The translations under genes and the position numbers were made by a program. Shown piece by piece: positions 12,449 to 44,139 of a stretch of 64,000 nt of DNA. The stretch comes from Paralichthys olivaceus (lineage: Eukaryota > Chordata > Actinopteri > Pleuronectiformes > Paralichthyidae). The stretch covers positions 8,561,001 through 8,625,000 of the forward strand of contig NC_091102.1 of the NCBI RefSeq assembly GCF_024713975.1, written 5' to 3'. Under the pieces are notes generated by a model. The model worked only from the letters and a program-made list of their open reading frames with translations, did no database searches and was not told the origin of the DNA. Position 1 is the stretch's first letter. Each line of letters begins with the position of its first letter.

Positions 12449-12985
12449 TTTACGAGTCTCAGATATGGAAATAACCGTTTCAAGCGGAGGATTAGAGTGA
12501 CATTCCTCACTGTGGAATTCAAAGTCCAAGCCGTCTTTTAAAAGAGAGTCATCACCATCAGTCAGCTGTGGCTCCTATTAACCGTTAACTGCCAATGCAG
12601 TGCTGACACGGGAGATTAACTTTTCATCCAAAGCTATCAGCTCTTCTATGGCTTCTTTAAGTCCAGGGCTATTCAATGAATATATTATATATATATAAGG
12701 GCGACAGTGGTGACAGGAAAAGGGGGAAGACAGAGGACAGACTTCCTAGTTTATAAGTAAATCCAATACTGGCAGCTGCTTCTTTACTGAAGGTTTACAT
12801 TGTGAAAATTGAGAAGCACTTGTGTCTTGTTTATATCACAGCCACAAAGCACCAAGGCATCTACATGTTCTACCATTCTGTTTTTATCTCTACATTGATT
12901 CAAACTAGTGAGGCAACATTTGGAGATTAGTGTTAAAACTAAGGCAACTTTATCACATTTTATGAAAGACATTAGAAGTTATAAC

Positions 12986-12989
<4 letters not shown>

Positions 12990-13046
<57 letters not shown>
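12990..13046 (+). repeat. (TG)n tract beside the pdzk1 acceptor
   Basis: About 28 TG units end 18 bases before the AG acceptor of the first coding exon of pdzk1. Only the pyrimidine tract TTCTTTCCTCCTTGTC lies between. The same arrangement, TG repeat then T-rich tract then acceptor, is known from human CFTR exon 9, where its length changes exon inclusion. Confidence 0.95.
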
Positions 13047-13048
<2 letters not shown>

Positions 13049-13067
13049 CTTTCCTCCTTGTCAGGAC

Positions 13068-15961
13068 ATGGCTGGGTACAAGCAGAAGGTGATTTCTCTA
13101 ACCAAGAGGCAGGGTCAGACATTTGGCTTCTATCTCAGGGTGGAGCATGGCGAGGAGGGTCACCTAGTTCGCTGCCTGGAAATGGGAGGACCGGCCGAAC
13201 TGGCAGGCATGAAAGATGGAGACCGCATTATCCGGGTCAATGGAACATTTACTGATGCACTGTCCCATTCCATGGTGAGTCGAGGATGTGAATTTACTGC
13301 AGTGCATTAACCCAATCAATAACGACTCCCGGGCAGGTGGAATAAATCCCGTGACAAGCAATTTTCCTCAGTCGCTTCTTTGTTTCCCCGGTGCAGGTGG
13401 TGGACCTGGTGAGAAACAGCGGACCCTCAGTCACGTTCCACATCTTGGATGAAGCCTCCTACAAGCAAGCAAAAGCACAGGGAGTAAACTTCTCCCAGCC
13501 TCAAAACAAACCGGTCACTAACGGTGTCGAGAAACAAGCTCCAAAACCCAAACTCTGCCACCTGCTCAAGTCTAGCTCAGGATACGGGTTTTCTATTCGC
13601 TCAGTCAAAGGTGAGGTCACGAGACAAAAAAACGTTAAAAAGATAAATCAAGACACAAATGTATCAACCACTATAGATAATGAAATATATCTATGTGTAA
13701 ATGTAACTTTAAATTTGCTAAACATTGTTGAACAACAATTTGTTTTCCACAGTGTGGAAAAGCAGTTTTTTTAATATCAATTTCCTTGCAACTGCACATG
13801 TGTTTATAGAAAAGAAAGCAATGGTGCTGGTGCCTCATCATAAAGGAAGAGAATTTGATCCGTGAACAAAATTAATTTTTCTTATTTCATATTTTCTGTA
13901 CCTCTCCAGGTGAGCCTGGTTTGTTCATGACGGAGGTGACCCCAGGAGATGTAGCTGACAGAGCCGGGGTCAAAGCCAACGACCGCCTGTTGGAAATCAA
14001 CGGAGAGTCCATCGAAGACTACACACACGACCAAGTTGTGGACAAGATCAGGCTGGCGGGTAGCAGCATTATGTTCCTATTGGCTGATGAGGAAACAGAC
14101 AAGCACTATAAGAGCAAGCATATGAAGATCGAAACCTGGTTTGCGACGACCAAGTACCTCCCTCACAAGCCGCGCATAATCAACATGACCAAAGGACCTG
14201 ATGGATATGGCTTCTTGCTCAGGGAAGAGCCCAACCAAAGAGGCAAGGCCAATATCATATGTTCATTTGACCATGACTGTGGTTTTCATCGACATTGAAG
14301 AGAGGAGGCTTTGTTCTGACTCATTTACACTGTGCAGGACACTTCATCAGGGACATAGACAGAGGCAGCCCCGCAGAAAGAGCAGCTCTGAAGGACATGG
14401 ACAGACTGGTGGCTGTGGACGGCCAGGAGATGGACAGCTGCACCCATGAGCAGGTGGTGGAAAAGATCAAGCAGAGTGGCAAAGATTGCTGCTTCCTGGT
14501 GGTGGACAAAGACACGGATCAAATGTACTGGCAGGTGAGTAAGGATTCCGCTGTCTAACTTATATAAATCGAATATAATATCCTGCAGACAATCATTACT
14601 ATGTAATGTCACTCACAGGGGAGAGTGTCTCCTCTGCTTTTCTGGGAGGAGATGAAGGATTCACCACCCAGTTACACAGAGGCCATCAATTTACCTGCTC
14701 CTGTCCAACAACCCACACCAGTCCAGGAGAGGGAAGAGAAGCTCAAGCCAAAACTCTGTAAGATGGAGAGGACCTCAGCTGGGTATGGCTTCCACCTTAA
14801 CGGCATCCAAGGAGTTCATGGACAGTACATTAAGGTGAGATAAGAGGAACATCCATTATTTAATAATCACACCTTCAAATCAATGAGGTATAAGTCACAC
14901 TTTGTTTCAGGTGGCAAAGGGTGGAGTGGCTGACCGGGCAGGTCTGGAAGACGAGGACGTTGTGGTGGAGGTGAATGGAGTGAACGTGGAACAGAGTGCC
15001 CATGAGGAGGTGGTGGAAATTATCCGTAACAGTGGCAGCTCTCTGGAGATGCTGGTGGCTAAAAGGAGCGTCTATGACGAGCTCAAAGCTCGAGAAGTGG
15101 CCATCACGCGGCTGCTACTTGAGGAAACCTCCTATGTTCAAGTTCACAATCAAGAGCTCAGCAAGGAGGAGCAACATCAGGAGGAGGCCAGGCCTGAAAC
15201 ACCATCTGAACCAGCAAGAGAGCGGGTGAATGATCCTTCTTTTCAAATGTTTACAGAAACGATTTTGGAGTCTCTCCACCACTTTGGTCCTAACAACCAT
15301 CGCATGGCTCTAGAAAGTTTGATATCCACCAACAACAGGTCAGCTAGCTAATGTTAGCTAATGAGCAGGTACCGGGGCCGTCGTAGCGAGATCCCGTCAA
15401 TACACACGTTCAACTTCGATTCAGTCTCGGGCGTCTATAATGACTTTTCACTCTGTTTTCATAGCATCAAATCACTCATTAATACCAAGCTGATTGGAAA
15501 CGTGAACACTTGAACACATCTGATAAGATACACCTAAAATGACAGAATCTTTTGTTTGGGCCATGTCCCGTCTGTTAACAAGGAGGAGGCGGGGTTTATG
15601 ACCTTTACTGCAGCCAGCCAACAGGGGGCTTTGGCTTGTTCTGAAGAGCTCCATCTTTTTACACAGTCTATGGTCTACACAACAGCAGTGTTCTATATAT
15701 AGCATTTAGCTCATAGCGCCAGACTACACCTTCAGTATAGCCTCCTAGCAATGGCTGTACACCACAGGTCTCGTTTTTGTAGCCATGAATCTTTACTAAG
15801 ATCTTAAAATGACTTCAACATGTCAATCTCCTTTTATCCTTTTAAATACCAGGTGACACATTAACATGTTCACAGGTTGAAATCATTTCACTGTTTTTCT
15901 CTTTTAGACCTCGTCAGTGTCATCATCTGCATCTCAAGAAAGTGTCGACGAGAGGCTCTGA
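13068..15961 (+). CDS. pdzk1: PDZ domain-containing protein 1 (NHERF3) scaffold
   Basis: Seven coding exons join in phase to 511 codons: 13068-13274, 13397-13610, 13910-14242, 14338-14534, 14619-14834, 14911-15225 and 15908-15961. The human protein is about 519 residues. Four PDZ domains are visible at about residues 8-88, 119-200, 225-305 and 361-443. Their carboxylate-binding loops are FGFYL, YGFSI, YGFLL and YGFHL. The linker pattern (KPKLC before PDZ2 and PDZ4, HKPRI before PDZ3) matches PDZK1. The family clusters transporters and receptors such as SR-BI, CFTR and solute carriers at apical membranes of kidney, liver and gut. Start: the ATG lies three bases into the exon, and MAGYKQ leads directly into PDZ1. 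The third intron uses a GC donor (AGAG|GCAAGG, 14243-14337). Reading past the donor at 15,226 gives a 41-codon alternative end, which I take as intron. A likely poly(A) signal AATAAA is at 16,324. The gene converges on gpr89. Confidence 0.93.
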
Positions 15962-22998: not shown

Positions 22999-25900
22999 AT
23001 GAAGACGATGGTGATCCAGGCTTCCTGTAGGAGAGGTCTGCAGGTGTGTTTACTCCTGCTGCTGCTGGGACGACTGCAGGGTGAGTGGATGAGAAAAATG
23101 TCAAATCAAGACCGACACATTTAAACTGGAGTATTGTTTTATGTACAGTATGTAATTGACCTTAGGGTGGATGTATCAGGCAGGGTCACAGCACCAGAGC
23201 GTCTGGAGGCTCCGGTGGAGAAGCCCTTCACTCTGACCTGCAGTGTCTCGAGGGAGCGAGGTGAATCCCTGAGGCAGGTGCGTTGGCTGGACGTCCAGAA
23301 CCAGACCCTGCTGAGCTACCAGCCCGGACACAGAGACAGCGTGAGTGGACAGCAGCACGTGGAGCTCGCCTCCTCCCCAAAGGACACCTCGGCCATCACC
23401 ATCCGCAGGGTGGGCTTCCGAGACGAAGGCTGCTACACCTGCATCTTTGACATGCATCCCTCGGGTTCAAAGCAGGGTCAGACCTGCCTCACGGTCACCT
23501 GTAAGTAACGATGACTTTAATTTTTATGATTTAAATGCAGTTTTGGCAAACATCCATATGTTAATGCTTATATAATCCTAATATATGTATTCAAGAAGAT
23601 GGGTTTTCAGCCTATGATTGATGAGATGTCCTGTTGTCTGTTTGATCCAGAATTAATATTTTTCATCAGTTTTTTTGAGTTTAAGAGATTCGTTAGAGAA
23701 AGCTAGGAGCCATTAGTGAGAAATAACACAGCCGAATAGATTCTTACTTGACAATAATAAAATTAGTGAATTCAATTCACCTTTTAATGCTGGATGAACT
23801 CTTGGATGCCCGCCTCTTGCCCCTCTCCCCATCAAAACTAAACAAAAAGCAACAGACTCCAGGGATATTTACTCCTCCCTACAAGACAAATATCAATCTG
23901 CTGTGGGGATTTACTGAGAAAATATGTGCATACACATGTCCTTAACCACTCCTAACCTCTGAACACAAGTTGATGAGTCTGTGGAGGCTCAGCCAGTCAT
24001 GTTAATAAAGAGCTGGAGCCCAGGGAGAGGGAGGTCTCACTAACCAGGAACAGCTGCTGCAGATTCCACTGACTGGTTTATGTTTGGGTGCCTCATAGTT
24101 GTGGATATTAACCATGTTCTGTTCTTCACCCTCTGTCTCCCTGTTTCCTCCCCCATCCCTCACTCTGTCACTGGACTGTGGCCCTTTGTTTCACTCCCAG
24201 CACATGTCACCGCTGACAGCAACAAGACGGCGGTGAATGGCAAGAAAGCGTCTCTCTCCTGCTCTTACGGTTTGCCCGAGAAGGTGCAGCAGATCTCGTG
24301 GAGATACACCCCCGCACAAGGAGAGTCCGCAGACGTGGCCTCTTTTGCGAAGCGCAGTGACCCCATGATTGAGCCATCGTACCAGGGGAGGGTCTGGCTC
24401 AGTGCCTCCCTGTCCGACAGCCAGCTCACCATCCAGCCCGTCACCATCCAAGACGAGGGCTGCTACACCTGCCTGTACAACACAGATCCTGACAAACCAA
24501 AGAGCTCCACAGTTTGCCTCTCCACCTATGGTAAACATAGGTTTTCCCCAGACAGCAATCAATAATAATTTCATATATGATAAGATGCATTTGGAAATAT
24601 AGTGGTTGTGCAAAACTGGAGCTGCCATTGTGGAGCAGGTTAAGCACAATATACCGGGTGTAGAGCCATGCACCATGTTTAGACTTTTTCAATACTGTCG
24701 GAATGCAAGTTTTGATGCTCATGTGTATGTTATATAAGTGCAGTTAGTTATCATCATTCCTCCTGCTCAAACTCAAAAAGCTTCCAATAACAGAAGCTTA
24801 TTTAGGAAATTATCTTTTCCTTGTTCTTTCAGTCAGAGAAGAAGATTGATGCCAGTTTCATATCTCCAGAGTTAATATGAATATTTGGAACAACAGTTTT
24901 GATTTCCAACATCTTACTCACTATTCAAAGTAATCACAAACCATCCCTTTGTCGGGAAACATACATGTCTGCAACTAATTTCTGTCCCTGACCCACCAGG
25001 GAATAATTCCTTGATGAAAAAAAATCAGGCACATTTAGGGAAGTGATGGTGTGCGATATCCTCTACAGAGTGCCATCATCTTTTAACAATACAGAAAGAG
25101 GGGAAATCTAGATCCAACCCTTGATCAAATCTGCTACATGTTTAATTGGTTCTTCTTTGGCCCATTCCCCACATCTCCTCCAAGTTTCAAGAAAATCAGT
25201 TTTGTAGTTTTTTTGCGTGAATCGGCTAAAAGTCAGACAAACTCTCAAACAACAATGAAAACGTTGGCAGAGGGAATAGTTTTTCTTTTATAGTTTTTCA
25301 GATGCTTGGTAGCAGCCAGTCTCCTGCAGTAGATGCAGCTGCCACCTATAGACCAGCTCCTGTGGAAGAAATAACATGCGAGGAGACGTAACCCCTCGGA
25401 TTTAGACAGGAATGTTGATCTTTCCTTCCTGATGATAGCCGCTGAATACTTTCATGATACAGCAGCAAAGCTGAGCTGTCGGGTGATTTGTTAACACAAA
25501 CACAGAGCGGTGTGTGTGTCCACGTGAAGAATGGGCCATTGGAAAAAGAATGATGGAGGCAGGGAGCGAGCTCCTGATGCATGACTGTGACAGTGTTGGA
25601 GCAGACACTGATTCCCTCTGTGCGTTGTCTCGCTCTCTTTCTGCTCTCTCGCGTTCCCACTTTTTCTCTCCCGCTCCCATTCTCTCTCAGTTATCTCAAC
25701 AGACAGATGAGCTTTTGTTTGAGATGTGAACTGTACAGTAGCCTACAGTAGGTGTTTCTAATAGCGAGGCTCCATTAGCATTAATGTTTTTTTCTTCTTG
25801 CAGCTCATTGCTCTTCCACCCTCATCCCACTCTGGATGATGTGATCCCCTCCCTCCCTCTCTTCCTCTCTCCCTCCCTCCCTCCCTCCCTCCCACACACA

Positions 25901-28439
25901 CATAAACACACATACACACACACACATTATTCTTGTTATTCACCGAGACAGGTGACTGTGTGACCCCAGATTGTGTGTGTGTGTGTGTGTGTGTGTGTAA
26001 GTCTATGAGATGCAGTTTTAAATCTGTCTACTTGCACTAGACATGTCCAAGGAAACAATGTTAATCTTTTGAGAAGGTCATAAAATTATATTTGAATTAT
26101 GTAAAGATTTATTAAGGTGGTTACAATCTTCAACCTCACCACTAGATGCCACTAAATCCATCACACTGGTCCTCTGATAGAAATATTTGTTTTATTCCTT
26201 TGTGAATTTAAGAGTTGTAAAGTAGAATAAAAAACCCTAACATTTGTACATTTATACATTTTATATATTATAACACCAGCACAGAATATTATAAATCCAA
26301 TGTTAGAATAAAGAAAAGCTTCTGTTCTGTGGAATGTAACTCAGCGCTGTAACTCTTATCTCCTTCACTGGGCACTGTGGTTTGGATTGTTATCAGAGTT
26401 TCTTCCTGTTGTTCATTCAACCAACCCCAAATTTGACACTGCTGCAGAGTGATGGCAGACGAAGTTCATTGCTTAGAAACTTTGAGAAGAAGAAGATGAA
26501 ACTATGAGGGCCAAATATATGTGGCTGCATGTGTTCTTGCCAACAACAATGTTCTCGGTTTCAGTGTATCACATTCCTCGCTTACCCCAGAGAACAGAAA
26601 ATTGAAAACAGCCTCAGATTTACTTATGGATCTTAAGTGTGCGGGAACTCACATACCGTAACTGATCCAGAGGCTTCAAGGTCTTTCCCAGGTATCATCT
26701 TAGCAATTTGCCCAAAGACACTTTCCAAATACTCAAACACAAACCGTACTACAATCTGAATTTGTAAATTAAACAAATATGTCCACCCCTGACCACATAT
26801 TAAAACTTTTCCTCTACATGTCCCACAGTGCTGCCCAAACCCCAGGTGAGCTACAAGACCACCTCTCCAGGAGTGATCGAGGCCAACTGCACCTGCGTGT
26901 CACGTCCCCCGGCAGAGATCGTGTGGAACGTGGAGCGAGATAACCGCACCATGGGCCCCCCTGTGACCACACAGCTTCCGCAGGCTGATGGGACCACTCT
27001 GATCATCAGTACGTTGACTGTGAAGTCAGGGCTGCTGAAAGACGTGTCTGTCAAGTGCCTGGTGCACCACAAAGGCCTGGAATCCCCGATCGCTGTTTCC
27101 ATGAACACTAAAAGTGAGTTGGCGGCGGTAAAGCTTCACTTGTGGAACTGCATCTTCTTTTGTCTGGGGGTGAACTTAACTTAACTCTACACATCATGAT
27201 TTCCTCAAGTAAAGACCACTAGTTAACCAGAATACCACTAAGAAAACTCAAAAACACAGTTCTGTTCTTGACTCAGAAAATTCAGTCGAGTCAGAACGAC
27301 AAATTGAAAGTCTGAAAATTTAGCTGCACAAACTGACAGGAAACGGGGGGTGCCATCGGGGGAGAGGTCAGGAGACAACTACAACTATATATAGTGTCTC
27401 TGTACTTTTGCTTGGCTGATAAAGCCGAGCGCAAAGCACTATTCTATTCTTCCACGCATAAACACAACAAGTGTTGTTTACAGCATTCATGTGTTGTGCA
27501 CATTCTGACTTGAAAGAACATGAACACATCAATTTTATCGAGCACCTTAAAACCTCAATCTTAACTCCATCATGCCTTATTTTACTTTCTTTCTCTTCCT
27601 CCAGTTGGAACAGCTCTCACCATCCTGATCTCAGTCACCACAGTAGCAGCTCTGTTGGTCATGTCCCTGTGCTTCTGCCTTTGGAAGTGTTTCCTGCACA
27701 AAGAAGGTGAGTGTGTATAATGACAAATGATTGCTTTGTGTCAAGGTTTGCACAGAATAGTCTAAAGAAAATTGTTCTTATTCTCAAATATATCGATTAT
27801 TTTCTTTAGATTTAATGAAACAGCAGTCTATGTTTATTTTTGGGGTGGCAATGTTTCCAAGAATGTGCAGCGGTATGGTGCAGTAAACTCTAGAGGAGTA
27901 ATACTGTGCCTTTCTTCATTCTTTCCTGGCTTGAACAAGAAATTATTAGAAAATCGATGAAATGCAATATTTAGGACTCGATCGCTATTCTAGCTTTTGA
28001 CAAACTGCAATGATGCAACTGAAACAATAAAAACGGAACAATGGCCCATTGGGTTGAGTAGCATCACAAGCTTTAATCACTGGTTGTGATATCAAAAGCC
28101 AGAAGGTAAAAACTCAGAGGGCCTAAGGGGCATCCTGTTTCTTAAAGTTACACCAATCATGTTTTTGTTGTGTTTTGGATCATATGGCTGCATGTGTGGG
28201 TTGAAACGAAGGTCAGTGAGGAACCCACAAGAATATGATTGGACTTTGCAGTTGCCTTTCAGAACATGACAGCGACGTCTACCTGCACTCAATCTGCACT
28301 TTTCTCACAGTCAGTCGCTGCTCTGTCTGTGTACAGAGAAAATAAAGATAACGGTGCCTCAGCTGAGCAGACGACTGAAACACAATCTGGAGGGATGAAG
28401 TCTGGCACGCACAGGGAAAGTTATGTGAAAGTTAAATAA
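22999..28439 (+). CDS. CD200-like Ig membrane glycoprotein, V-V-C2
   Basis: Exons 22999-23080, 23180-23500, 24201-24530, 26829-27113, 27605-27706 and a tail exon to 28439 all join in phase 1. They give about 435 codons if the tail exon starts at 28252. In order: signal peptide with a poly-leucine core (residues 1-27), V-type domain 1 (28-134), V-type domain 2 (135-244), C2-type domain (245-339), stalk and transmembrane helix (about 343-365), and a tail of about 65 residues. Both V domains end in DEGCYTC with further cysteines, the signature of CD200 (OX-2). The C2 domain has the CD200-type N-C-T-C start and the ISTLTVKS strand. CD200 binds the inhibitory receptor CD200R on myeloid cells; a CD200R gene lies 13 kb away. 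Mammalian CD200 has one V and one C2 domain, so the second V domain is unusual. The tail acceptor is the weak point: TTTGCAG|TTGCC at 28,252 keeps the frame open to HRESYVKVK-stop. An AG at 28,262 gives a shorter tail. Confidence 0.8.
25856..25926. repeat. (CCCT)n and (CA)n simple repeats
   Basis: CCCT/CTCT units run into CACA units inside the large third intron of the CD200-like gene, with a separate (GT)n at 25,974-25,998. Confidence 0.9.
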
Positions 28440-31400
28440 ACCATGAAATTAAGGGTATTTGCTTTTATGGTTTAGTGGCAGAGAAGAACTGATGCTCTTC
28501 ATACTTTCCTGTCCTCCAATTGGCTCACAGACCCCGGGGTCCTTATACACAAGGTCTGCAGCTGGAAGCTGCTCCCACTGCCACAGCCACGTCTAACTGA
28601 AAGTTATAAAAAAAACTGTCCATGTTTCACATCATACACTTCTTTCAAATCAATATGTGAATGAAAATCTAGGATACCCAACCCCAGCCTGTCGGGACTC
28701 ATCGGAGAGACATTTTTGAAGGATATTTGGGTTGGGGTCATGTTGGCTGGGTCAAAATACCTCAGTTTTTACACTGTACATGTCAGTAATCAAAGAAAAC
28801 ATGTATAACCATGTGTGTCAGGGACAAGGTGACACAAACTGAATTGGGTTTGGACAGAAAAATCCTTGATTTTAGATATGCTGATGTGATGTCTCATCAT
28901 TTTTCTTTATAAGCAGCACTTCAAAGATGAACAGATATGAAGAGGGATTTTTATTGATTTGTTTCGATTGTTTTCTTTGGTAGTACGCCAGATATGAAAT
29001 TCGATTTTCCTTTAATAAACCATAGAAAGAACTTTGGGTGCCTTGAAATGTTTCTTCCATTTTGTGTCATTACTCCTACTGCTCTTTTCACGCGTTTCGT
29101 TTCAGCTGATTAATTTTCCGAGTCTGAACAGCAGAGGCAGTGCTTCTCAGATCGAACGTTGCAGAAGTGATTCCAGACATCCTCCTCCTCATCATCATCA
29201 TCATCACCTTGGTACAAATTGAAGATGGTCTGACACACCTCTGTGGCTGTGTCCAACACAATCCTACACATGAGCTCCGACCGTTGGACGTTCAACTCTG
29301 CTCCTCTGCATCTGACTCTCACAAAATCTCCAGGCTGTGTTCACTTGAAGTCTGTGGACTGGGTCATATTTATTCTCTGTAATGGATGAGTCGCTGTATG
29401 GTCAATTAAAGTACAGGAACTTCTCTTTGACAGCAGGTTTCTTTTCCTTAAAACACTTTCCTCTGTTTGTCACTGGTGTTTAAATGATGTTAAAAGAAAC
29501 ATGTGTGGTGACATTTTATATTTTTCTTATTCAAACAAATCCTATTCAAAAAGATCAAAAACAGATCAAAGAGCCACATGATGCACCAGTGGCATGAACG
29601 TGGGAAATGTAGTTTAGTTTTAAGTTGATCCCATAAACACCATTCTGCTTCTTTACATTTTCACTGGCTCACAAAATGACTGTTAATCCCAACAAATTCC
29701 ACGATTTATCCCACGACTGTTTGTGTACAATTAGCTTAAACTACAGAATGAAAATATTTATCTTGGTATTTATCTTTTTGTTATGCTGAATCTATATATA
29801 TATTTCTGTATGCCCTACTTTTAAAGATGTGTCTCAGTTAGTTTCACTTCCTTCACCAGACTATAGACTGTGTAGAAAGATGGACGACATGAGAGCTCCC
29901 TAACCCTGTCTGCAGTGTTGGTCATAAATCCAACCTCCTCCATGTTAGTAGATGGGACATGGGCCAAAGTACACATCAAATAACATTTTTCAGAGATGGT
30001 TTCTTCCTTTTTAGTTAGTTCTTATCACACTGATGTATGTTCAAGTGACTCAGTATATGGGTTAAGCGTGTCCATCGCTGTCCCCCTTATACTTCGGCTC
30101 AATCCTCCAATTGTGTCTGTGCAGACTCCGGCAGTATTTGTGTTTTTTTGTTTGAATTTTTTGGCTTGATTTCTGGATAATGGGAGGAGGTGGAAACGTC
30201 ATCCATTGTAGAGATTGACTTGTGTTTTTTTTTATATTTTCATAGGATTTTTGACTGTAGGAAAAATATTAAATATATAAATGTAGAATAACACAGCTAA
30301 GGGATTGATTTTTCCTCTTCTTGTACCTCAGTCGATGATCTCCTTCACTTTTGTGTTTTGTGAAAGCTGGGAGGGGTCATGGGTAGATGCCATCAGATAA
30401 ACTAAAAAGGCTGCACGCTAATTTGTTTGCGTATCAACAGAAAACTTTTCTACATGTTGTGTGAGGGTGCATCTGTGTGTGTGTGTGAGTGAGAGAGAGG
30501 GAGTGTAGAGGTTAAATTCCATGAACAAATAGCTTGAATAAATTCCCTGAAGAAGAAATGCTGAAACCTTTTCTGGTGCCTCTAAAAGAATGCGTGTCTG
30601 TCTACATCGAAAGAGTCCAACGAGTTCCTGTGGGTGACCTCAGGTTAGGCTGTGAAGGGGTGTAGAGAGTGAGCGGCCTTGTGGTTTTAGAAATTACTTA
30701 AGTGCTGCAGGTTGAACACGTTAAAGAGAAACTCCACGACTCCTCTAAATATACTTGAACAAAACCCTAAAAGCCGGCTTCAAGCACCTCAAGTATACTG
30801 TAAATATGCTTTGTGGATATATAAAATGCGTATTTGTACTGTACATGCTTTTCAAAATGTATTGTTGCATGTAAAATAGATACAAATCTGTCAGTTATGT
30901 ATCGACAGAAGAATTACATACAGGTTTTCAGACTATTATAGACTGTAATTCAGTCATATGATTTTTCAGTAATAACATGATTATCAGTCGTGTGGAGCTA
31001 CATTATACTGATTATGAGTCCAGTCCTGTACAGAGCAAAAAGAGAGTACTAGTTACGACCAACTATTTAAACTTGATATAATAAATGCAACAAACAGAAT
31101 AATAAAACTTAAAACCTATCAAGTTTCTGAATCTTTTATCATTTTTAACATCCTGCCAACTTCTCTGCTAGTTTGGCTCAGCTTTTAAAAAACATAAAAG
31201 TCTTCTGTGCCTTGTCCACACCTGCCGGCCAGATGCTCATTTTATAAGGCCCTTTTCATCCTCTGCCAAGCGGGTTATGGTGGACCATGCAGAGCACACA
31301 CACACACACATGCTGTGCTCACACTTACTGCTGTGTTCTTATGTGTTCAAAAGCTCTGAGATGACACAGAATATTTGTCAGTACAGTTTAAGTAAAGTAA

Positions 31401-33807
31401 AGAGGTATGTATGTGTAAGATAAATACATATCATAAAACAGCTAGAAGAAACAGCAGAGTGGGCTTAATATAACGAAGTGAAAGCGATTGTTGACTTGGT
31501 GCCTTTGTGGTGCACCATGCAGTTGACACATATTTCTGCAGCATGTGTGCGCGATGTGTGTTTTTAGAAAATGCACATGCAGTGTCAGGTACGTGACATA
31601 TTTTTTCATGTAGGTTTGTGGAGTATGAGTGTGCAGGTCAGGCTGTGGTGAAGTGAAGAGCTTACAGTAACCTGTGAAAAAAGGGTAATAAATTGAATCA
31701 ACTTCTCCTGTTACTTGAGAGCTGCAGATGAGCCACTCTGATCCTCTGAAGTGCCCTTTAAAAAAATACTGGATGAAAATAAAAGATAGAAACATTTTAA
31801 TATAAATTAAAAAAATGTAAAATTAATAACTGCCTCTTTTATTTTCTTTGATTTTTTGGAACTTGGTCATGTCATGGCAGTCCCAAACATGAATCCAAGA
31901 CCACAAGCGTTCTGCTTTTCTGAACAGCTCATTCAATGCTGCGGACTGAGTCCACACGCTGTGACTGACCCCGAGCTCGATCGTATCAGGCTCGTGTGTG
32001 TGTGAGAGAGAGAAACAGAGAATGAGAGAGGTGTGTGTGTATGTTTGTGAGGATGTAAAAGCTTTCTTGGAACAATAATTGTGATAATAAAGTTTTTTTA
32101 TTTATTTTATACAAAAAACATACAGAAAATCCACTGGACTTATTTTAAAGCCTCTACCTCAATGATGTTGACAATTTAAAAAATCAGGAAAAACAATGTA
32201 GGATGCAGAAATGATACAAATAATGTGTTTGATAAAAACAATATTAATATCAATATAAAAACACCAACATGTGGTCAGGAGATTTAATGTATGTTAGGGA
32301 TTGACCCTAACATCAACCCTTGAAACTCTGGGTGTGAGCAGTTAGTCTGGGAGAATGGAGGAGCAACAATGAGACCAGAAATCCAGGAACGTGGTTCAGA
32401 GTTCTCATCTCACTTCCTCACAAGATAAAAAAAGATACACGGCACCGATACACACAAACTCACAGACAGACAGGAGAGTTCCCAGCCCACAGACAAAAAG
32501 GGCCACATGCTTCAAACAATAGCTTTAAATAAGTTTGGGTAAAACCAACCCCTAAAGAGAAAAGGTCAAATGAAAACAATTTAAGCAAACAAGAATAATT
32601 ATAAATTGCTTTAACTTAATACAGTAAAGAGTACAATAACTTTACAACTATGTATTAAGACTAGAGTTAATATGACTGAAGGCTAGGAGAAGAAGAAGAA
32701 AATACAAAAGAAAACCAATAGCTCCCTCCCCCCATTCCTACATGGTTTAGTCCACATTGAAACCACCTGGTGGAGATGTGGCATTCATGTGCACCAGCCT
32801 CAACCAGGAATATGGATATATTAATTTCAACAAATACATTAACAGCAAAGTGGATCCTAATTTAGTTGACAACACAAACAGGGAAACAAATGTTCTCAAC
32901 AGGAACCAAATATTCACAATGAATAAACAGAGAGCTGACCTGACTGGTGAGGGAGTGAGCTTCCTCACAATGTATCAGGAAGAATGAAAAGCTTTACCTC
33001 TTCCTGAGAGACAGAATCCACTGAGCATCATTTCTAATGAGGGGTTGCAGGTCTAGATTTGTTTCAAGGGCTCACATGGGAACCAGTAGTCAACTGTGAC
33101 ATATTGTCTTAAGTTGGTTTGGGAAATTCCTCATCGTTCCTTCCCTCTCTTTGTTTTCTGGAATCCACCAAGGAGCTATTTGTTTGTCTTTTAGCAGGAC
33201 TACGCAAAAGTTGGTGAATCGTCTTCTGTGAGATGGATGCTGATGATGATGATGATGATGCTGGACTCTTAAATATGTTTTCTCATTATCTGATTTCTTT
33301 TTATCATTTCACAGACCAGATTGTTGTTTCTCAAACATATTTTGATCTCCAGTGAAACGGAGGAATAAAGGAATGCAAAAATAAATCTTAAAGACATCAC
33401 ATCTGCTGCCTTGAAAAAAACAAAGTACTTGCACTTGTCACAGATCAGCCCGAGGGATCATATTCAAATGCTGAGTAATTGTTTTTTAATACAAACTGCT
33501 GAACAAAGCTTTGGCTGACAAGTAAAAAAAGAAAAACTCTTAAGGTCCTGTAAATGAAATGAATGAGGAAAAAAAATCACATAAGAAGATGCTAATAATA
33601 AGAAGCAGCATCAGCTGGAACAAATGTGGGGATGAGAGAGCAAATAAAATCCAGCTTCTACTTTGTTGTAGCATCTGCACGACCACAAGCCTCCTCCATG
33701 CACCTCCTCGGCAGTGATCGTGTAACCTCTGCCTGTTCCACCACATCATGCTGTACACTTGTGTGAACATGTTTCCATTCATGTCTATAATACATTTAAA
33801 AAAACAT
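28440..33807. other. 3' flanks of the CD200-like gene and btla
   Basis: No exon is recognised between these convergent genes. The left part is probably the 3' UTR of the CD200-like gene: AATAAA overlaps its stop at 28,436, and there is ATTAAA near 29,404. The right part may hold the 3' UTR of btla. Simple repeats occur at 30,476-30,502 (GT/GA), 31,292-31,309 (CA) and 33,241-33,259 (GAT). The short ORFs here carry no recognisable domain. Confidence 0.4.
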
Positions 33808-35946
33808 CTAGGAAACTTTGACGCCAGCATACTCCGTTTTTTTTCCTTCAGAGGCAGCATGCTGGTTTCTGACAGGTCTCCCTGCCTGTGTATGGTCGAT
33901 GGTGGTGTACATGCCTAAAGGCTGGTTCCCACTGGTGATGACGGTCGGTGGTGTCCCTGGAGAGTGGAAGTTATTCAGACCAAACATGACGGGAGTGGAA
34001 GGAGTGCTCCACTTGGGCAGGTCAGGCATCATACGAGTGGACATTTGCTGTGACACCAGATCAAGATTAGTTGAGACAATGAAATGCTCCAGATTGACTC
34101 AATTAGACTATTATCTATCTATCATCCATCCACCCATCCATCCATCCATCCATCCATCCATCCATCCATCCATCCATCCATCCATCCATCCATCCATCCA
34201 TCCATCCATCCATCCATCCATCCATCTATATACGAGAACAGAACATGTTCTCCTTTAAATTAGCAGCACCAATAAATGTTACCTTTGCCTTTGTTGACTT
34301 CTGGGTCAGAATTTCTGCGAAGAGACAAATCACAAATTGTTTATGTTGTAAAATCCAATCTTCTTACAGTCTGATCCAAAATGTTAACAAGTGTTAATGT
34401 TCTTACGTTTCCAGCAGTAAGAACTCAGGAGGGTTATTGCCGATAATGTGAAAACCAGAAGAGCGATGCTGGCACAGATTAAGAGGTAAGGCAGCCAGGA
34501 CTCAGTCTCAACACCAGGAGCGGTCAGTGACTGTTCTACAAAAAAAAGAGCCAGATCAATAAGTCTGTTTTGATTCAAATGTATTTAGAATAACTGATAA
34601 ATAAAGTTTCTTACTTGCGGCAGTGTGAGTTTGCGCAGCCTTCTGATGTGTGCCTGATCAGAGCGATGGAATAGAATGAATACTTATGACATATTACATG
34701 TATGTTGTGACAATGAAGGAAAAAAATGTACCAATACCTGAAACTGAGATGTTGATGGTGTGACTGATTTCGTGATATCCATTTTCTTTTAAATGACATC
34801 TGTACTGGCCGCCATCTTTCGCAGAAATTCTTTTGAAAGTTAAACTCGAGACCAGTTTGTTTCTCCCTCTGTCTCCTGTCTGACTTATTATTACATTACT
34901 TGTGATTTTAATCTGTTCACAGACGTTTGTGTCTAGTATTTTACACCACATGACGTTCATTGACCTGCCACAGTGTTTGACCGGACAGTTGATCGTCACC
35001 CGGTCGCGTGGTGCTTTTCTCAGCACCGTGCCTCTCCGCACCATCAGCCCAACTTCACATGTAGGAACCATGCCTGAAATTTAACAAAATGAGAAAAAGG
35101 AAAATTTATTTAATTGGAAAGAAACTGAATAACTTCCAAAAATATTATTCCAGATAACAGGAATAATGTTTCCTTTGAGGGTGGAGATATTTCTATTTAT
35201 GTATTCTGTGATCTATGTTGTCAAGTTCCTTATATGTACACACACGGCACAACCCAATATATACATTCATATTACTCTTGAACACGTTTCTTTTTATGAA
35301 ATTATACAGCTGCCAAATTACATAGTAAATACTGTTTAGATACATGATTTTCAAGTCACAGATGTAGCAACAACCTGTATATACTTACAGGGAACTTAGA
35401 TGAAAGTTTTTTATAGCTTATGTTTTACAAATTGATTTTAAAAACAAAGATATTTAGAAGATATATGTTTAAATATATATTTTTTCAAAAATTACATCAC
35501 AATTTTATGGTCCCAACTATTTCTGTTTGGATTCCTACCTACAGCAGCAATGTAATAAAAAAACTAGGTCACAATTATAGAATTTTTTTAACACTAAAAT
35601 AATTATATGTTTGATAATTTCCTTGCAGTACCAGAACTGTTATATAACGCTCATGCTAAGGTTGTTGGATTTTGTAATTATGACTTAGATACTGAGAAAA
35701 AATACTGTTGTTACCCAATTATTTGTCCTTTTCTGTCGTACGTATGTACAGGTAACTAGCAGGTATTCTATATACACCTCGTACCTTTAATGATTACACA
35801 GAAATCCCTACCATTCCACTTTTGTCCAATTAATAGCTGTAGTCTATTTGAAATATTCCCTCAGACTCACCTTCAGGTCTTCCATAGATGGAAACAGAGA
35901 GGTACAAGATCATCAGATAAGTGTATGAGGGTCTGTCCATGTTCAT
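33808..35946 (-). CDS. btla: B- and T-lymphocyte attenuator (BTLA)
   Basis: Six exons join in phase to 283 codons: 35946-35871, 35073-34738, 34653-34615, 34535-34407, 34314-34283 and 34047-33808. They encode a signal peptide (1-25), one Ig domain (26-137), a stalk (138-150), a transmembrane helix around 165-188, and a tail. The Ig domain keeps all six cysteines of mammalian BTLA in order: [21 protein letters not shown] and YRC. The CPVKHC...MWCK spacing is diagnostic. BTLA is an inhibitory receptor of lymphocytes that binds HVEM (TNFRSF14) and recruits SHP-1/SHP-2. The tail has two tyrosines: Tyr251 in GMYTTIDH, at the place of mammalian IVYASLNH, and Tyr277 in TEYAGV, at the place of TEYASI, which also fits the TxYxxV switch motif. 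The membrane-proximal tyrosines of the mammalian tail are absent. It is head-to-head with the adaptor gene at 37,451. Confidence 0.85.
34123..34227. repeat. (ATCC)n tetranucleotide microsatellite
   Basis: About 25 uninterrupted CCAT/ATCC units fill nearly half of the 235-base last intron of btla. Confidence 0.97.
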
Positions 35947-37279
35947 GACCTGAAACTTCACGAATGACTTAAGACGGCAGCGACTGCAGGGGCTCAGTTC
36001 ACTCGTTAGCTCACTCACCACTTCCTGAGCACCAACGCATCTTCCCTAAGACCATCGTACATGTGGGTATTTCAGTGTGTCATGTTTCAGTATGTCGTGT
36101 TTCCAAGCTACATGTGTGAAAACTGTGATTCTGTAGTTAATCCAGATTTATATATATTTATATATACAAATAATCTCACAACAGAGACTACACATGTAGC
36201 TTTTAATCTCTACTGTCAGAGTATTTTACATACAACCACATTGTACTGACAATGACTCAGGTAACCATGGAGCCCAGCAGGAAGTTAAATGAAGACCTTG
36301 ACCTTTGATGCCTGTTTTTCCAATAAGTGACAAATATTGACTGAAATCTATTCTAGACAAAATAACATGGAATATGTTGAATTTCTACCATCGGTAAAGT
36401 CTTAAAAACAGTGAAGAGACGATGAAGCTGTGCTGTGGCCTGGTTCAGTAATGTTCAGTCTAAAACTATACAGCAGTCATTTGTTTTGTGACAGTCGATT
36501 CATATCCACTGCATCATTTTGTGTTTCATCAGCTGATTATTGCTGCTGTACACTGACACTGTAAAAACAAGGTGGAGGGATTGTGTTACTTCCGTTACTC
36601 AGATGTATAAATGTCAGTCACTTTTCTACTGTAGACTGAAGTCTTGGTGAATCAGACTTTTCCAACAGCTCCCTCCAGTGTTTAATAAAGAGCCTGCAAT
36701 GATTGCATATGTAGAATCTTGCAACATCCTCCTCGTATTGAGCTGCTTTTCTCCTCTAAAACCTCCAAAGCTGGTTGATTTTACTGCACTGTGCATATCA
36801 CAAGTGTCTAATTGATCACGACAACCACTGCACCCATTGACGTCTATTTCTGACTGTTGACAAAGATGCAGTTTGTGAAGTAAACTGGACTTTCACAGAA
36901 AGTGAAAAGAAGTGAGTAACTTCCTTATTTTCTCTCCTCAAGATGCATTTCAATTCATTTTGCAAAATTACGCAAATGAGAGTATAAAGCAACGAGAGAA
37001 CTCGAGCTTCTATTTGCACAAATACAACTTCCGTCAATGCACGTTTCTTCAGATACCTGCTACTAACAGTTCTGCCACTGACACATGAAAGAAAGGAGGA
37101 AGGAAATGACAATTGAAATTTGATTTAAAAATAAAAATGTTCAATATATATTTGTGTATCTGAGACTTACCCCTACAACATGAATGCATGCATTTTCGTG
37201 TGTGTATGTGCGTGCGAGCATGTGTGCACGCGCACGTGTGTGTTTGTATACAGGAAATAAAAAAAGCAGTCTCAACTCT

Positions 37280-37320
<41 letters not shown>

Positions 37321-37450
37321 GTGGCCTGTGTGCTCTCAGTCAGAGATCAGCGATATCAGTGTGTGCTACAGTGCCAAGCTAACAGATACCTTCAGCCATA
37401 GGCACCTCTTGGCAAATACATTGTGAGCGTCTAGAGTCCGTGGAGTCATC
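35947..37450. promoter_or_regulatory. Shared upstream region of btla and the adaptor gene
   Basis: The two genes are transcribed away from each other from this 1.5-kb interval, so it must hold both promoters. ETS-type cores (ACTTCCT at about 36,020 near the btla start; AGGAAGT near 36,283) would suit expression in blood cells. A perfect CT run lies at about 37,286-37,317, about 130 bases before the adaptor ATG. The functional reading is inference. Confidence 0.4.
37286..37317. repeat. (CT)n microsatellite
   Basis: Sixteen or so CT units upstream of the adaptor gene, in the probable promoter or 5' UTR. Confidence 0.9.
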
Positions 37451-39135
37451 ATGGGAAACTGCACCTCAGGGTAAGTCATTATCCTCACACACGGTACACA
37501 GACCACTTACACTCGCACAACATTTCACTGTCTGATAATTATCCTCTAGAGCTCCACAGATGGAGAAATTCCAAAGTAATGTGGGTAAGAACAATTTAAG
37601 GCAACAGTATGAGAGAGGCTGTTGGTTCTTGGTTAAATGAAGCTGGTGCATTGTGGCCCTGTGGTGAGACAATGGTGAGGGACAGTGTGTAGAATTGTGT
37701 TATATCTACAGTTGAAATTGCATGTTGCAGCTGAACACCCCTCATCTCACCCTCTCCACATGAAAAAGAACCTCTGGTAGCTTCAGTTGTCATAAAAACT
37801 CAAAAGGTGTTTAGTTTGTCCAGTCTGGACTAATGTAAAAACATAGAGAGGGTCCCCTCCATGTAAATATAAAGTATTTCAATATAAAAGGTCTTTTCTG
37901 GGGTAAAGAAAACTACAATTCATACAATGTAGATGAAATGAACTAGTGAAAACATCTTGAGGATTATTCTACTTTGAATTTCTGCCAATAGTTCCCTTTC
38001 ACCTAAATCTTACACACTGGACCTTTAACTTAGTAACCGTGCACTACATTCTGTATTTGTATTGGGAGATGTTGACCTTAAAGAATGCAAGTTTCCACAA
38101 CGTCCTGTAGTCTATGACATAAACAGTTGCTCTTTTATCAATGTGGGTTGTAGACTTAGGCAAAGTGTTTCCTGTTCTAGCACACGCTGTCATTTGTTGA
38201 ACTGTCAAGGAAATGCTGCTGCGGTCAAACGCTACACAACTGAAAAGCAGAAGATATTTTAGGTTTTTGCTATTTCAGGATATAAAAGTCCAGCTAAACC
38301 AGCTAAATAATAATTAACATTTACAGTCTTTTAAATAAATGTACCACACATTAATGTCTGGATAACTGTGTCCTTATTCGATTCTTATAATTTCATTTTG
38401 TTTTACTTCCAGGACAAAGAAGAGCAGAGAAGGTAAAACTACACTTAGGAAAGCATTGTTGTCATTTATATAAATCTATTTGTTGTTTTTATACATTTTT
38501 ATTTCCTCCTTCAGATGAGTCTGCCCCAGATGATAGAAACCACACAGATAATAAGGTACGTGGGCCCACAGTAATGTTGAGTTAATCATTTATCGAGCAT
38601 GAATCTTCACAGTTATTCAGCTGCAGTTCTTCATAGGACACAGTCCTCCAGCTTCTGTGCTTTTATGATGACCTAGAAATAGATCATACCACATCAGATT
38701 TGCATATTAGGTTCTTCAATTCACAGGAAGTTATAGCAGTTAACCAAATATGCTGTTGCTATATATGCTGTATGAAAAAAATCAGAAAACTATTTTTGGC
38801 ATATGTTCAGGAAGATAGATTTCAGGTAGGTTAGTTGTAGTTTGTTCATTTATTTATGCATTTGAGCAGTCACATGACCTGACAGGTGACTCCTGATCTC
38901 TCTGCTTTGGAGGTAACTCGTGGGAGCATTCACATTTTTTATCTCTTGACAGCCGGTCGAGGATGTAACGTATGCCTCCATCGACCACAGCACTGCCAAA
39001 GGATCAAGAACAACCAGAGCTGTATCTGATGACGACTGTGATTACGCCACAGTTCAGGTCCCAGCAGCACCCGAACCTGAGTCTGAGTCTGAGTCTGAGC
39101 CCTCATTGAGAGATGATTATGTGCTGATGGGGTGA
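37451..39135 (+). CDS. 87-residue lipid-anchored phosphotyrosine adaptor (unnamed)
   Basis: Four exons join exactly in phase to 87 codons: 37451-37470, 38413-38432, 38515-38555 and 38953-39135. The ATG has an optimal context (A at -3, G at +4). The N-terminus MGNCTSGTKKSR fits N-myristoylation (Gly2, Ser6), with a candidate palmitoyl cysteine (Cys4) and following basic residues, as in Src-family kinases. There is no signal peptide, Ig domain or membrane helix. The tail part carries Tyr34 in VTYASI (a perfect ITIM), Tyr58 in DYATVQV, an acidic SESESESE stretch, and Tyr83 in DDYVLM (a YxxM, PI3-kinase-type motif). The stop codon follows Gly87. The small exon sizes and the VTYASIDH motif resemble the cytoplasmic tails of Ig inhibitory receptors, btla next door included. 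I infer a membrane-inner-face adaptor for SH2 proteins in blood cells. I do not recognise it as a named gene. Possible poly(A) signal AATAAA at 40,062. Confidence 0.72.

Positions 39136-39455: not shown

Positions 39456-39532
<77 letters not shown>
39456..39532. repeat. (GT)n microsatellite
   Basis: Nearly 38 perfect GT units in the probable 3' UTR of the adaptor gene. Confidence 0.97.
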
Positions 39533-39654: not shown

Positions 39655-39855
39655 ATTAAAAATCCATCCGTCCATTAACAATACCATTTATTCTGGAAGT
39701 GTTGCAGCGGGGACCGGAGCCAATCAGGTTGCGAGTGTGTTGCAGGGTGGACATAAAGAGACAAAAAGTCACATACAGTCAATTAGAGTCTCCAATCAAC
39801 CTAAGCCCAGTCTGCTTGTCTCTAAACTGTGGGAGGGAACAGGATGACTTCGGCC
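39655..39855 (+). mobile_element. Decayed teleost interspersed repeat
   Basis: The order 'catccgtccatt', then 'acataaagagac', then 'aattagagtctccaatcaac', then 'aactgtgggaggg' matches a repeat that is very common in teleost genomes. In that repeat the intact form reads 'atagagacaaac', 'atttagagtcaccaatta' and 'actgtgggaggaa'. The class (LINE tail or DNA element) cannot be decided from this copy. Confidence 0.5.
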
Positions 39856-41061: not shown

Positions 41062-44000
41062 TCAGTTATAGATCGAGTTCACACGTTGAACATAGCTGGC
41101 ATAAGGTTCCACTTCCTCCACATCCTCTATCTGAGTAACAAAACACAAAACAGCAGAGATGAACAAAACTTCACATGGTACAAAATAGAAATCACAAGAG
41201 TGAGTTACAGAGAAAATGACCCACCGGTGGAGATTTGGATGATGATGAGACAGACCGGTGGCATCGCCTTAACCAAAAGGTGAACACACAAACCATCAGT
41301 GACTCAATACAAAAAAAAATACTAATTTATGATCAAATGCAACTTCTTACCTCAACATTATGATTTTCTTTTGTGCAAAAACTGCAAATCCCACCAAAAG
41401 CACACTGATAACCACACCAATGAGGATGAGCAGAAAAGGAACGTAATCTGAAATGACAGAAAATATGAAACTTTCATTCATAATTTGACACTAACTCAGT
41501 GCCGGTATAATGTTCTCTTGCGGTGCAGCCTGACCTTTTCTGAGTTTTGGCGTCAGAATCTGCTCCTGTTGCCAGTACGGGTGCCTGACAGCACAGGACA
41601 GGTTCTGCGTGTCTGTGCCCTCGTCGAGCTCCAGACGACTTTCCACTGTAATGAGTTCGTCTGAGACACGCGTCTCCACAGACTGCGAGTCTCTGCTGTG
41701 AGTCCAGCTGATGTTGGCTGCAGGTTTTCCTCCTTCAGCTCTGCACACTGCCACCATCTTGTCCTTGCTGTGCTCTATCCAGGCTGACAAACTGGGAGGA
41801 ACTGAGCCAGGGAAGACAGAAGAATGGCAAAAGTTTGACTTAAACACATAAACACGGACATAAACACACAAGTGTTATGTACAAATGTCAGTTTATTTAA
41901 TCACACTCAACATGATAGAAACTCTTTACATTGAATTTATGCAATAAAGGTACATGGGAATTTAATGTATAAATATAAACAATTATTTCAAAATTTTGAT
42001 GTTTACAATAAATAAACTAGAATGTCCCTCAGTAGAGCTCATACCTCAACAGTGCCCTTAAGAATCCACGTTAAAATTCACTAGATCTGGATTTTTATCT
42101 GGAACTGCACCACATTGCACACACTCATGTAGATCAGTCTCTAAAACACGCCTGGATTCTCAAATCCATGAATCATCCTCTGAGAAATCAATGAAAATGT
42201 TGAAAAGATCTCGAAATGATAAAGACAGGTGACAATATAAATCACCCCCCCCCCCCCCCCCCCATTCCACATTCATTCATTTTCATGATAAATCAACAAA
42301 TAAATAAATAAATAAAGAAGAAATAAAAAGTGAGGCGACATTGTATCCAGAAAGACATAATGCTATTAATTCATTCATATATGTAACTGGAAGTAACAGT
42401 AAATAGTATTTTTTCAGCTCTTACCTGTGATGGCCACGTTGATCTTATAGCTCTCTTCCCCACCGAAGAAAACAAAATCACATTTGTAGACCCCCTCGTC
42501 AGCGGCGGAGAGGTTTGGGATGTGCAGGTACGACTGAGCCCTGGAGGGGTTCCTGAGAGACTTGCTATCGTTGCAGGAGTCTAGCTTCTCGCCCGTAATG
42601 TTGCTGAAGGAGATCTCACAGTTTTTGTGCTGGATTTTCCAAATTACATAGATGGTGTTGTTCCACTCCCTGTCACTGCAGGTCAGGTTCACGTCACTGC
42701 CCAAGTTGAACATTAGATTTCTGACAACTGGAGGAAAAAAGTTAAAAGAATATTGCTTATCTTTTTAAAAGGACATAAAATTCAGTATAAAATAGATCAT
42801 AGTTATTTTTTTAAACGATTAGTTTGGATTAGAGGTGTGAAAAGAAAATAATAAGATTTTATCTAAAATCATGCAAAAGTAAATGATTACTAAGAACAAT
42901 GTTACACATCTAACAAATCCAGATCTTTAAGAACAGATTCAATTAATGACAAATGTTTTTTCACAGTGGTGGAATATGTGGTCCAGACTCTTAATATTTC
43001 ATTCACATTTCACTTCTTCAAATTCAAAATAAAGACTTTCTACTTCAGAAGTAACTTATGTCAAAGTATTTCTCGTTCATTTAGTTCATTCAACTCTTAA
43101 AAAGTGGATTAATGACAAAAGCGGGGACTTAAATGTATTTTATATGTTGGTCAACTGTCTCCTTTAACGTTTCAGTGAAATACCCAGAGAGGAAAATAAG
43201 AAAATGAGTTTACCATAAATCCTGGAGGTCACAGAGGTGCTTTGATTAGTTCCTGAGAGAGACGATCGTGAACATTAGTAAAAAGCTTAGTTAAACAGTG
43301 TGTGAGTGTTCGATCTGCTCAGTCCTTAATTAGTTATTAGTTGGTTTGTTAGTCAGTTAGGGTGTAAATGTAAATAACAAACAGTTGTGAGAGAAATTGC
43401 AATTTGTTTTTGTGGAGAAATTGTGAAATCTCTGAGAGGAAAAGCTCAACTTATAAAACGGCATAATGTCATTGCCATTGTCTTCTTCCTCTCGTCTGCT
43501 CGGTGAAACAAGCTCAGGACTTCCCCATAGTTATTTCATGTTGTGGAGGCCTGAGACTTGTTTGTTTTTCTGATGGGGGTGAGCACAGACAGAGTGCTAC
43601 TGCAGTGGCACAGCGAAACCACAGAAATCTCTCTCCCACCCGTCAGACCCCACAGTGGAGGGAAAAAAAAGCTGATCTGATAACATGATTTCCATTACAG
43701 GTGCTGCTTGTTCATTCAAAAAATAGGGCGCAGATCTGTTATGGAACAGTTTTCATTACACCTCCATCCTTGTGCTTTCCACTGAGCTGTGAGTCACAGG
43801 AATAAGAAAAATCTCAGAGCGAAACTTACATTTACATTAGGTGGAAAACCTTTTACTACAAATGACTATGAGGAGAGTAATTAGAGTTAAGGATAATACA
43901 TTCATGCAAAATATTAACATGCTGTGTCAAGTACCTCAAATGACACATTCAGAAAAAAGAGAGTATCTCTGTATAGAAATCCTGTTTACATCTAAATCCT

Positions 44001-44139
44001 GGATTTCATCACAACTTGAAAGTATAAAGTATTTAACTATATGGAAGTAAATTGTGTTTATGATCAAACCTGGGTCGAGGCTCCACGCTTCAGATACCAA
44101 GAAGAAAACTATGGCAGAAATCAACATCATGTTCCTCAT
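41062..44139 (-). CDS. cd200r1: CD200 receptor (CD200R1-like)
   Basis: Seven exons join in phase to 295 codons: 44139-44070, 43252-43214, 42727-42425, 41801-41535, 41447-41351, 41267-41225 and 41130-41062. In order: signal peptide (1-21), a short linker exon, a V-type domain (37-137), a C2-type domain (138-226), a transmembrane helix (about 230-250), and a tail. The C2 core MVAVCRAEGGKPAANISW matches mammalian CD200R (AVC, then AGKPAAQISW). The last exon encodes IEDVEEVEPYASYVQ, then RVNSIYN and stop. It lines up with the mammalian CD200R end, EEDEMQPYASYTEKN then NPLYD. CD200R inhibits myeloid cells without an ITIM, through the adaptors Dok2/Dok1 and RasGAP. The 43-base exon 6 was inferred because it is needed to keep phase; its acceptor TTAAG|G and donor CCG|GTGGGT are acceptable. 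The gene symbol is by family; gene-copy orthology is untested. Confidence 0.86.
42245..42263. repeat. Homopolymer C19
   Basis: Nineteen cytosines in a row inside the cd200r intron before the C2 exon, followed shortly by (AAAT)n. The sense strand of the gene would carry G19. Confidence 0.95.

Follow-up and report, generated by a model that had tools for sequence, protein, structure and literature searches.

The window, a stretch of 64,000 nucleotides (C10:8561001-8625000 of a genome searched as 588 Mb in 25 contigs), carries a small four-exon gene, here called the adaptor gene, between btla and a cd200r-like gene. The coordinates are collected in Table 1. Joined in phase, the four exons amount to 264 nt, or 87 codons and a TGA stop, and translate as MGNCTSGTKKSREDESAPDDRNHTDNKPVEDVTYASIDHSTAKGSRTTRAVSDDDCDYATVQVPAAPEPESESESEPSLRDDYVLMG. 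The introns are all GT-AG, with donors AGG/GTAAGT, AAG/GTAAAA and AAG/GTACGT and acceptors CTTCCAG, CCTTCAG and TTGACAG. Exon 4 has a GC content of 52%, as compared with 37–38% in introns 1 and 3, and poly(A)-type signals lie 3′ of the gene at 39655, 40062 and 40394. A genome search matched two places, both belonging to this same gene, and gave no other locus; its structure, motifs, position and copy number are read directly from the DNA. Replacing exon 2 with the candidate alternative exon in intron 1 keeps the frame and would yield a form that lacks the basic KKSR stretch; as an extra exon ahead of exon 2 the same segment breaks the frame, and it was rejected in that role. Intron 1 also contains a dispersed repeat (37678-38032) with at least 39 other places in the genome at 87–91% identity, among 3755 first-look candidates, and a long (TG)n repeat occupies 39458-39532 in the presumed 3′ UTR, after the stop codon and ahead of the first poly(A)-type signal.

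Table 1. Coding exons of the adaptor gene and the two genes that flank it (window coordinates).
Feature	Position	Strand	Description
Coding exon 1	37451..37470	+	20 nt; MGNCTS and 2 bases of codon 7; ends in phase 2; Gly2, Cys4, Ser6
Coding exon 2	38413..38432	+	20 nt; basic stretch TKKSRE; phase 2 to 1
Coding exon 3	38515..38555	+	41 nt; acidic/polar linker DESAPDDRNHTDNK; phase 1 to 0, as in btla exon 5
Coding exon 4 with stop	38953..39135	+	183 nt; VTYASI (Tyr34), DYATV (Tyr58), DDYVLM (Tyr83); starts in phase 0
Candidate alternative exon 2	37550..37584	+	35 nt; AG/GT borders; in intron 1; MGNCTSGAPQMEKFQSNVDESAP...
btla	33808..35946	-	Six coding exons; head-to-head with the adaptor gene; closest tail by exon phases
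cd200r-like gene	41062..44139	-	V-set, C2-set, TM-type exon, tail EPYASYVQRVNSIYN; tail-to-tail with the adaptor gene

The encoded protein opens with a lipid-anchor-type start followed by basic residues (MGNCTSGTKKSRE), and its MG myristoylation-type N-terminus with a basic cluster (MGNCTSGTKKSR) predicts lipidation. Cysteines occur at positions 4 and 56 only. The three tyrosines, Tyr34 (VTYASIDH), Tyr58 (DYATV) and Tyr83 (DDYVLMG, the extreme C-terminus), are spaced 24–25 residues apart, and VTYASI conforms to the ITIM consensus (as given in excerpts of PMC11518702). We looked for an Ig domain or a convincing membrane segment in the protein and found none. Pfam returned no domain, the sole entry listed being a low-complexity repeat family far under the cut-off (E 0.077), and a search of PDB sequences gave one match, to an unrelated chain (E 0.089). 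When relatives were sought in viral contigs, nine stretches fitted a pattern and none was confirmed.

Of the neighbouring genes, btla is identified by its Ig domain, for which BTLA chains take the first five places among PDB matches (E 2.9e-8 to 1.2e-6); one of its exons is hydrophobic and of TM type, and its tail carries GMYTTIDH and TEYAGV. Within that tail (33808-34047, minus strand) GMYTTI misses the strict ITIM consensus, having Gly at Y-2, while the adjoining adaptor gene has the strict form. For the cd200r-like gene the best solved chain is CD226, not CD200R, and its name rests on an earlier reader of this DNA, the V-set/C2-set pair and a tail motif. Upstream, a cd200-like Ig gene on the plus strand at 23–27.6 kb is already equipped with a TM segment, near 27574, and therefore has no need of the adaptor's tail exons. 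Its region (23125-27640) contains V-set ORFs at 23125-23508 and 24044-24565 and a C2-set ORF at 26804-27184; a second V-set exon would be unusual for CD200, and the two V-set ORFs may be alternative exons or belong to two genes. Elsewhere in the window there is a GSK3 exon at about 54 kb, and open frames on the plus strand at 12966-15351 carry PDZ domains (Pfam PDZ at 13876-14298 and 14887-15351) that presumably represent an NHERF-type multi-PDZ scaffold. An earlier note, made from the letters of this DNA, had described four exons joining exactly in phase to 87 codons, a product with an MGNCTS start, basic residues, VTYASI, DYATV and DDYVLM and neither Ig nor membrane segment, and a position head-to-head with btla and tail-to-tail with cd200r. 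The GT-AG introns and joined translation, the domain and transmembrane scans and the BTLA chain matches bear out this description, as does the orientation of the downstream gene, the name of which we keep as "cd200r-like" in view of the CD226 match.

The gene order within human 3q13 is probably GCSAM, SLC9C1, CD200, BTLA; our literature search found no paper that gives the order of genes inside this band. GCSAM (HGAL, GCET2, mouse M17) is a protein of 178 residues encoded at 3q13 (excerpts of PMC4262766), the human band to which BTLA is also assigned (excerpts of PMC6449624). As described in excerpts of PMC11518702, HGAL has a myristoylation site (MG2NS), palmitoylation at Cys43/45, an N-terminal basic cluster and a PDZ-binding end; Y86 fits the ITIM consensus, His91 binds FBXO10, Y107 binds GRB2 and Y128/Y148 bind SYK, and at the B-cell receptor the protein stimulates SYK and attenuates migration. 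The same excerpts give GCSAML (C1ORF150) an MG2N start, four tyrosine sites that include an ITIM-type Y69 and a YEN (Y89), and neither the palmitoyl pair nor the PDZ end, and report that mouse, rat and lower vertebrates lack it. Its coding exon 1 is 29 bp long (excerpts of PMC10333346) and therefore ends in phase 2.

The fish adaptor resembles these proteins chiefly in design. It shares with GCSAM an MGN start with basic residues (its lipid anchor being a prediction), the lack of Ig and TM segments, and an ITIM-type tyrosine followed by spaced tyrosine motifs. In both, the ITIM-type tyrosine has His at +5 (Y86/H91 in HGAL, Y34/H39 here). The HGAL tyrosines Y86, Y107, Y128 and Y148 stand 20–21 residues apart, somewhat closer than those of the adaptor, and the C-terminal pair is separated by 25 residues here (Y58/Y83) and by 20 at the SYK sites of HGAL. 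The last motif, DDYVLM, resembles DEYELLM in HGAL but is YxxM, not YxxL. Both the adaptor and GCSAML begin with a short coding exon ending in phase 2 (20 and 29 bp), an MG2N start and an ITIM-type tyrosine, and both lack a palmitoyl pair and a PDZ end; of the two, GCSAML alone keeps the YEN site. Mouse M17 begins MGNC like the adaptor, and its alignment to the adaptor scored above 1997 of 2000 shuffles. Against a two-sequence profile built from working HGAL and M17 sequences, the adaptor ranked about 21st of 5001 when set among 5000 shuffles (5.3 bits).

Membership of the HGAL family was not borne out by profile searches. Pfam PF15666 (HGAL), which gives the working HGAL sequence 145 bits in this library, matched neither the adaptor protein nor pieces of it at E up to 10. 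Searched against the genome, this profile did not match the adaptor locus and pointed to two other places, at 19.2 and 18.6 bits against a cut-off of 27, both with stops inside; one candidate from a genome search with M17 (E 0.72) also has stops inside and was rejected. Neither search thus revealed a better GCSAM candidate elsewhere in the genome. A reading of 400 bases of one place (L011) showed nothing telling. The working human HGAL sequence aligns poorly with the adaptor (157 of 2000 shuffles reached its score; z 1.8 and 57 of 1000 in a second run), and tblastn of HGAL against the window missed the gene; M17 ranked it first, at E 0.40, but only once composition correction had been switched off. 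The GRB2 site (YENV, HGAL Y107) is absent, the adaptor motifs YASI, YATV and YVLM having no Asn at +2; so are a Cys43/Cys45-type palmitoylation pair and, at the DDYVLMG end, a PDZ-binding motif, although GCSAML is without these last two as well. Moreover, the adaptor is about half the length of GCSAM, with three tyrosines instead of four and a terminal YxxM. In human, BTLA is also linked to ATG3; ATG3-family places in the fish genome lie on C16 and C24, not C10, so this wider linkage is not kept. A literature search of open-licence papers, judged partly by titles and the beginnings of abstracts, found none on fish GCSAM; excerpts of PMC12132402 deal with GCSAM in mammalian T cells.

We also compared the adaptor with receptor tails, in shuffle alignments of 19 sequences, of which 18 were working sequences of known proteins and one, the btla tail, was taken from the window. 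The human BTLA tail came out best, with z 6.4 and a score reached by 0 of 1000 shuffles (0 of 2000 in a separate run). It was followed by M17 and the SIRPA tail (z 5.2 and 1 of 1000 shuffles for each) and LAIR1 (z 4.6; 3 of 1000); the window's own btla tail had z 2.9 (13 of 1000). The CD200R1 and HCST tails were rejected as sources, the former aligning weakly (10 of 1000 shuffles) and the latter, that of DAP10, at chance (629 of 1000). In tblastn against the window, the human BTLA tail found the adaptor gene at E 0.051, above the window's own btla exon at E 1.4. In common are an ITIM-type YAS[IL][DN]HS and a second motif, YA[ST][VI], a combination seen in the human tails of BTLA, LAIR1 and SIRPA. 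Exon structure agrees: the last two exons run from phase 1 to 0 (41 nt in the adaptor gene, 32 nt in btla) and then from phase 0 to the stop, an arrangement that other ITIM receptors also have. The ITIM and a second tyrosine motif in a last exon that starts in phase 0 make up a BTLA-type tail module, whereas the Ig domain and transmembrane segment of a BTLA receptor were not found in the adaptor gene, which adds a YxxM and a lipid-anchor-type start. YxxM sites bind PI3-kinase p85 in DAP10 (HCST) and CD28-type chains; those chains are transmembrane, and no convincing membrane segment was found in the adaptor. We conclude that the protein does resemble receptor tails, though no single receptor in particular, because SIRPA, LAIR1 and M17 come close to BTLA.

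Two alternatives concern the gene model, the weakest part of which is exon 1. If that exon is wrong, exons 2 to 4 could encode the tail of a transmembrane protein, and its true start, with a signal or membrane segment, would have been missed. The window has a single MG-type start with a near GTAAG donor, and 23 of 60 shuffles have one or more; in addition, a TM-like stretch (SLSLSL at 37277, encoded by a (CT)n repeat) is followed by a right-phase donor at 37422. Nevertheless, with GTRAG or GTAMGT donors admitted, the interval from the btla ATG to exon 2 contains just four single-exon ATG-to-donor stretches of the required phase 2. Of the three competitors of MGNCTS, two share donor 37422 and cross simple repeats and one, at 37637-37674, reads MKLVHCGPVVRQ; MGNCTS alone combines the donor AGG/GTAAGT with A at -3 and G at +4, the best signals of the four. 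Seven TM-like stretches lie on the plus strand between 35900 and 39135, and for those other than the one at 37277 no compatible donor was found in the slice searched, which ended short of 37422; a start through the (CT)n repeat that would give a hydrophobic segment is unlikely. Upstream receptor exons were likewise rejected: the only plus-strand ORF of at least 100 aa within 27184-37451 (33812-34258) is antisense to btla and has no Pfam match, so that no Ig-matching ORF of this size lies between the cd200-like gene, itself with a TM segment, and exon 1. We therefore regard a missed transmembrane start as distinctly improbable. Slighter still are the chances that the locus is a decayed tail fragment or a set of chance open exons and not an expressed protein-coding gene. 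The shortness of the frame, with only 87 codons, and the lack of a database match would fit such an origin, but the frame is intact across three canonical introns and exon 4 stands out in GC content. In addition, the motif trio (ITIM-type Y, then Yxx[ILV], then YxxM, at spacings of 15–40 residues within one open frame) turns up at a single place in the window and, of 60 dinucleotide-preserving shuffles, in 1, a count that serves as a guide and not a test since the pattern was composed after the sequence had been seen.

A third alternative accepts the gene but derives it from a local duplicate of a BTLA-type tail that acquired a lipid-anchor first exon within the fish lineage, with no ancestry in common with GCSAM; the product might then be a free ITIM/YxxM scaffold that competes with or assists btla. 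The top rank of the human BTLA tail in alignments and tblastn and the last-two-exon phases common to two adjoining, head-to-head genes speak for it. It is weakened by the general nature of the likeness and by the poorer alignment of the window's own btla tail, and it leaves unexplained the MGN start and the exon 1 phase that are common to the adaptor and GCSAM/GCSAML. We consider it rather unlikely. At the level of residues, a BTLA-type tail is at least as good a match as GCSAM, and GCSAM orthology and an independently detached tail are inseparable by sequence alone. The lipid-anchor start, the lack of an ectodomain, the ITIM with spaced tyrosines, the phase in which exon 1 ends and the human band nonetheless point to GCSAM. 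Since design favours GCSAM and the residue match falls short of proof, we describe the protein as one that works like HGAL and is its probable divergent counterpart, and do not file it as a family member. Our preferred reading, to which we assign a probability of roughly 0.5, is that this is a real gene, present once in the genome, that encodes a small inner-membrane adaptor like GCSAM/HGAL; it is probably the divergent fish counterpart of GCSAM or at least a functional analogue, orthology not being proven. The earlier note knew of no named mammalian counterpart at this locus, a view that the literature does not support, GCSAM/HGAL being a myristoylated, tail-like tyrosine-motif adaptor in the same band as BTLA. 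Its proposal of a receptor tail detached and given a lipid anchor agrees with the tail likeness, the type of start and the gene structure; the tail cannot be attributed to one receptor, and we give more weight to a GCSAM-type origin.

The two origins could in principle be one, if GCSAM-type adaptors as a class arose from a duplicated BTLA-type receptor tail joined to a lipid-anchor exon and fish kept the tail-like form with its PI3-kinase site. We think this improbable. Comparing the working sequences directly tells against it so far: M17 aligned to the BTLA tail at chance (350 of 500 shuffles) and HGAL weakly (45 of 500). KIR2DL1 was the best tail for HGAL among those compared (2 of 500), and TRAT1 scored above most shuffles for both M17 and HGAL (5 and 4 of 500).

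Expression, lipidation, phosphorylation, partners and function of the adaptor are inferred from these features by way of the recognized meanings of SHP-type and p85-type docking motifs. Under the preferred reading of a GCSAM-like adaptor, Gly2 would be myristoylated and Cys4 probably palmitoylated, with the basic KKSR helping to hold the protein at the inner leaflet. Close to a clustered antigen receptor, SYK or Src-family kinases might then phosphorylate Y34, Y58 and Y83, creating a putative SHP-1/SHP-2-type site at pY34 (VTYASI), a further SH2 site at Y58 (YATV) and a candidate PI3-kinase p85-type site at pY83 (YVLM). On these motifs the protein could be a mixed inhibitory/activating adaptor. 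By keeping phosphatase and PI3-kinase at the membrane, it would damp or redirect antigen-receptor signalling and tune cell movement, parallel to the action of HGAL through SYK and GRB2.

To our knowledge, fish do not have mammalian-style germinal centres. Should the adaptor be the fish counterpart of GCSAM/HGAL, this B-cell adaptor, which mammals associate with germinal centres and lymphoma, would be older than germinal centres themselves. Its fish version would then signal through SHP phosphatases and PI3-kinase in place of GRB2 and PDZ-RhoGEF. Should it instead be a tail that was detached separately, the gene would give a clear example, open to experiment, of how a receptor tail can become a free adaptor.
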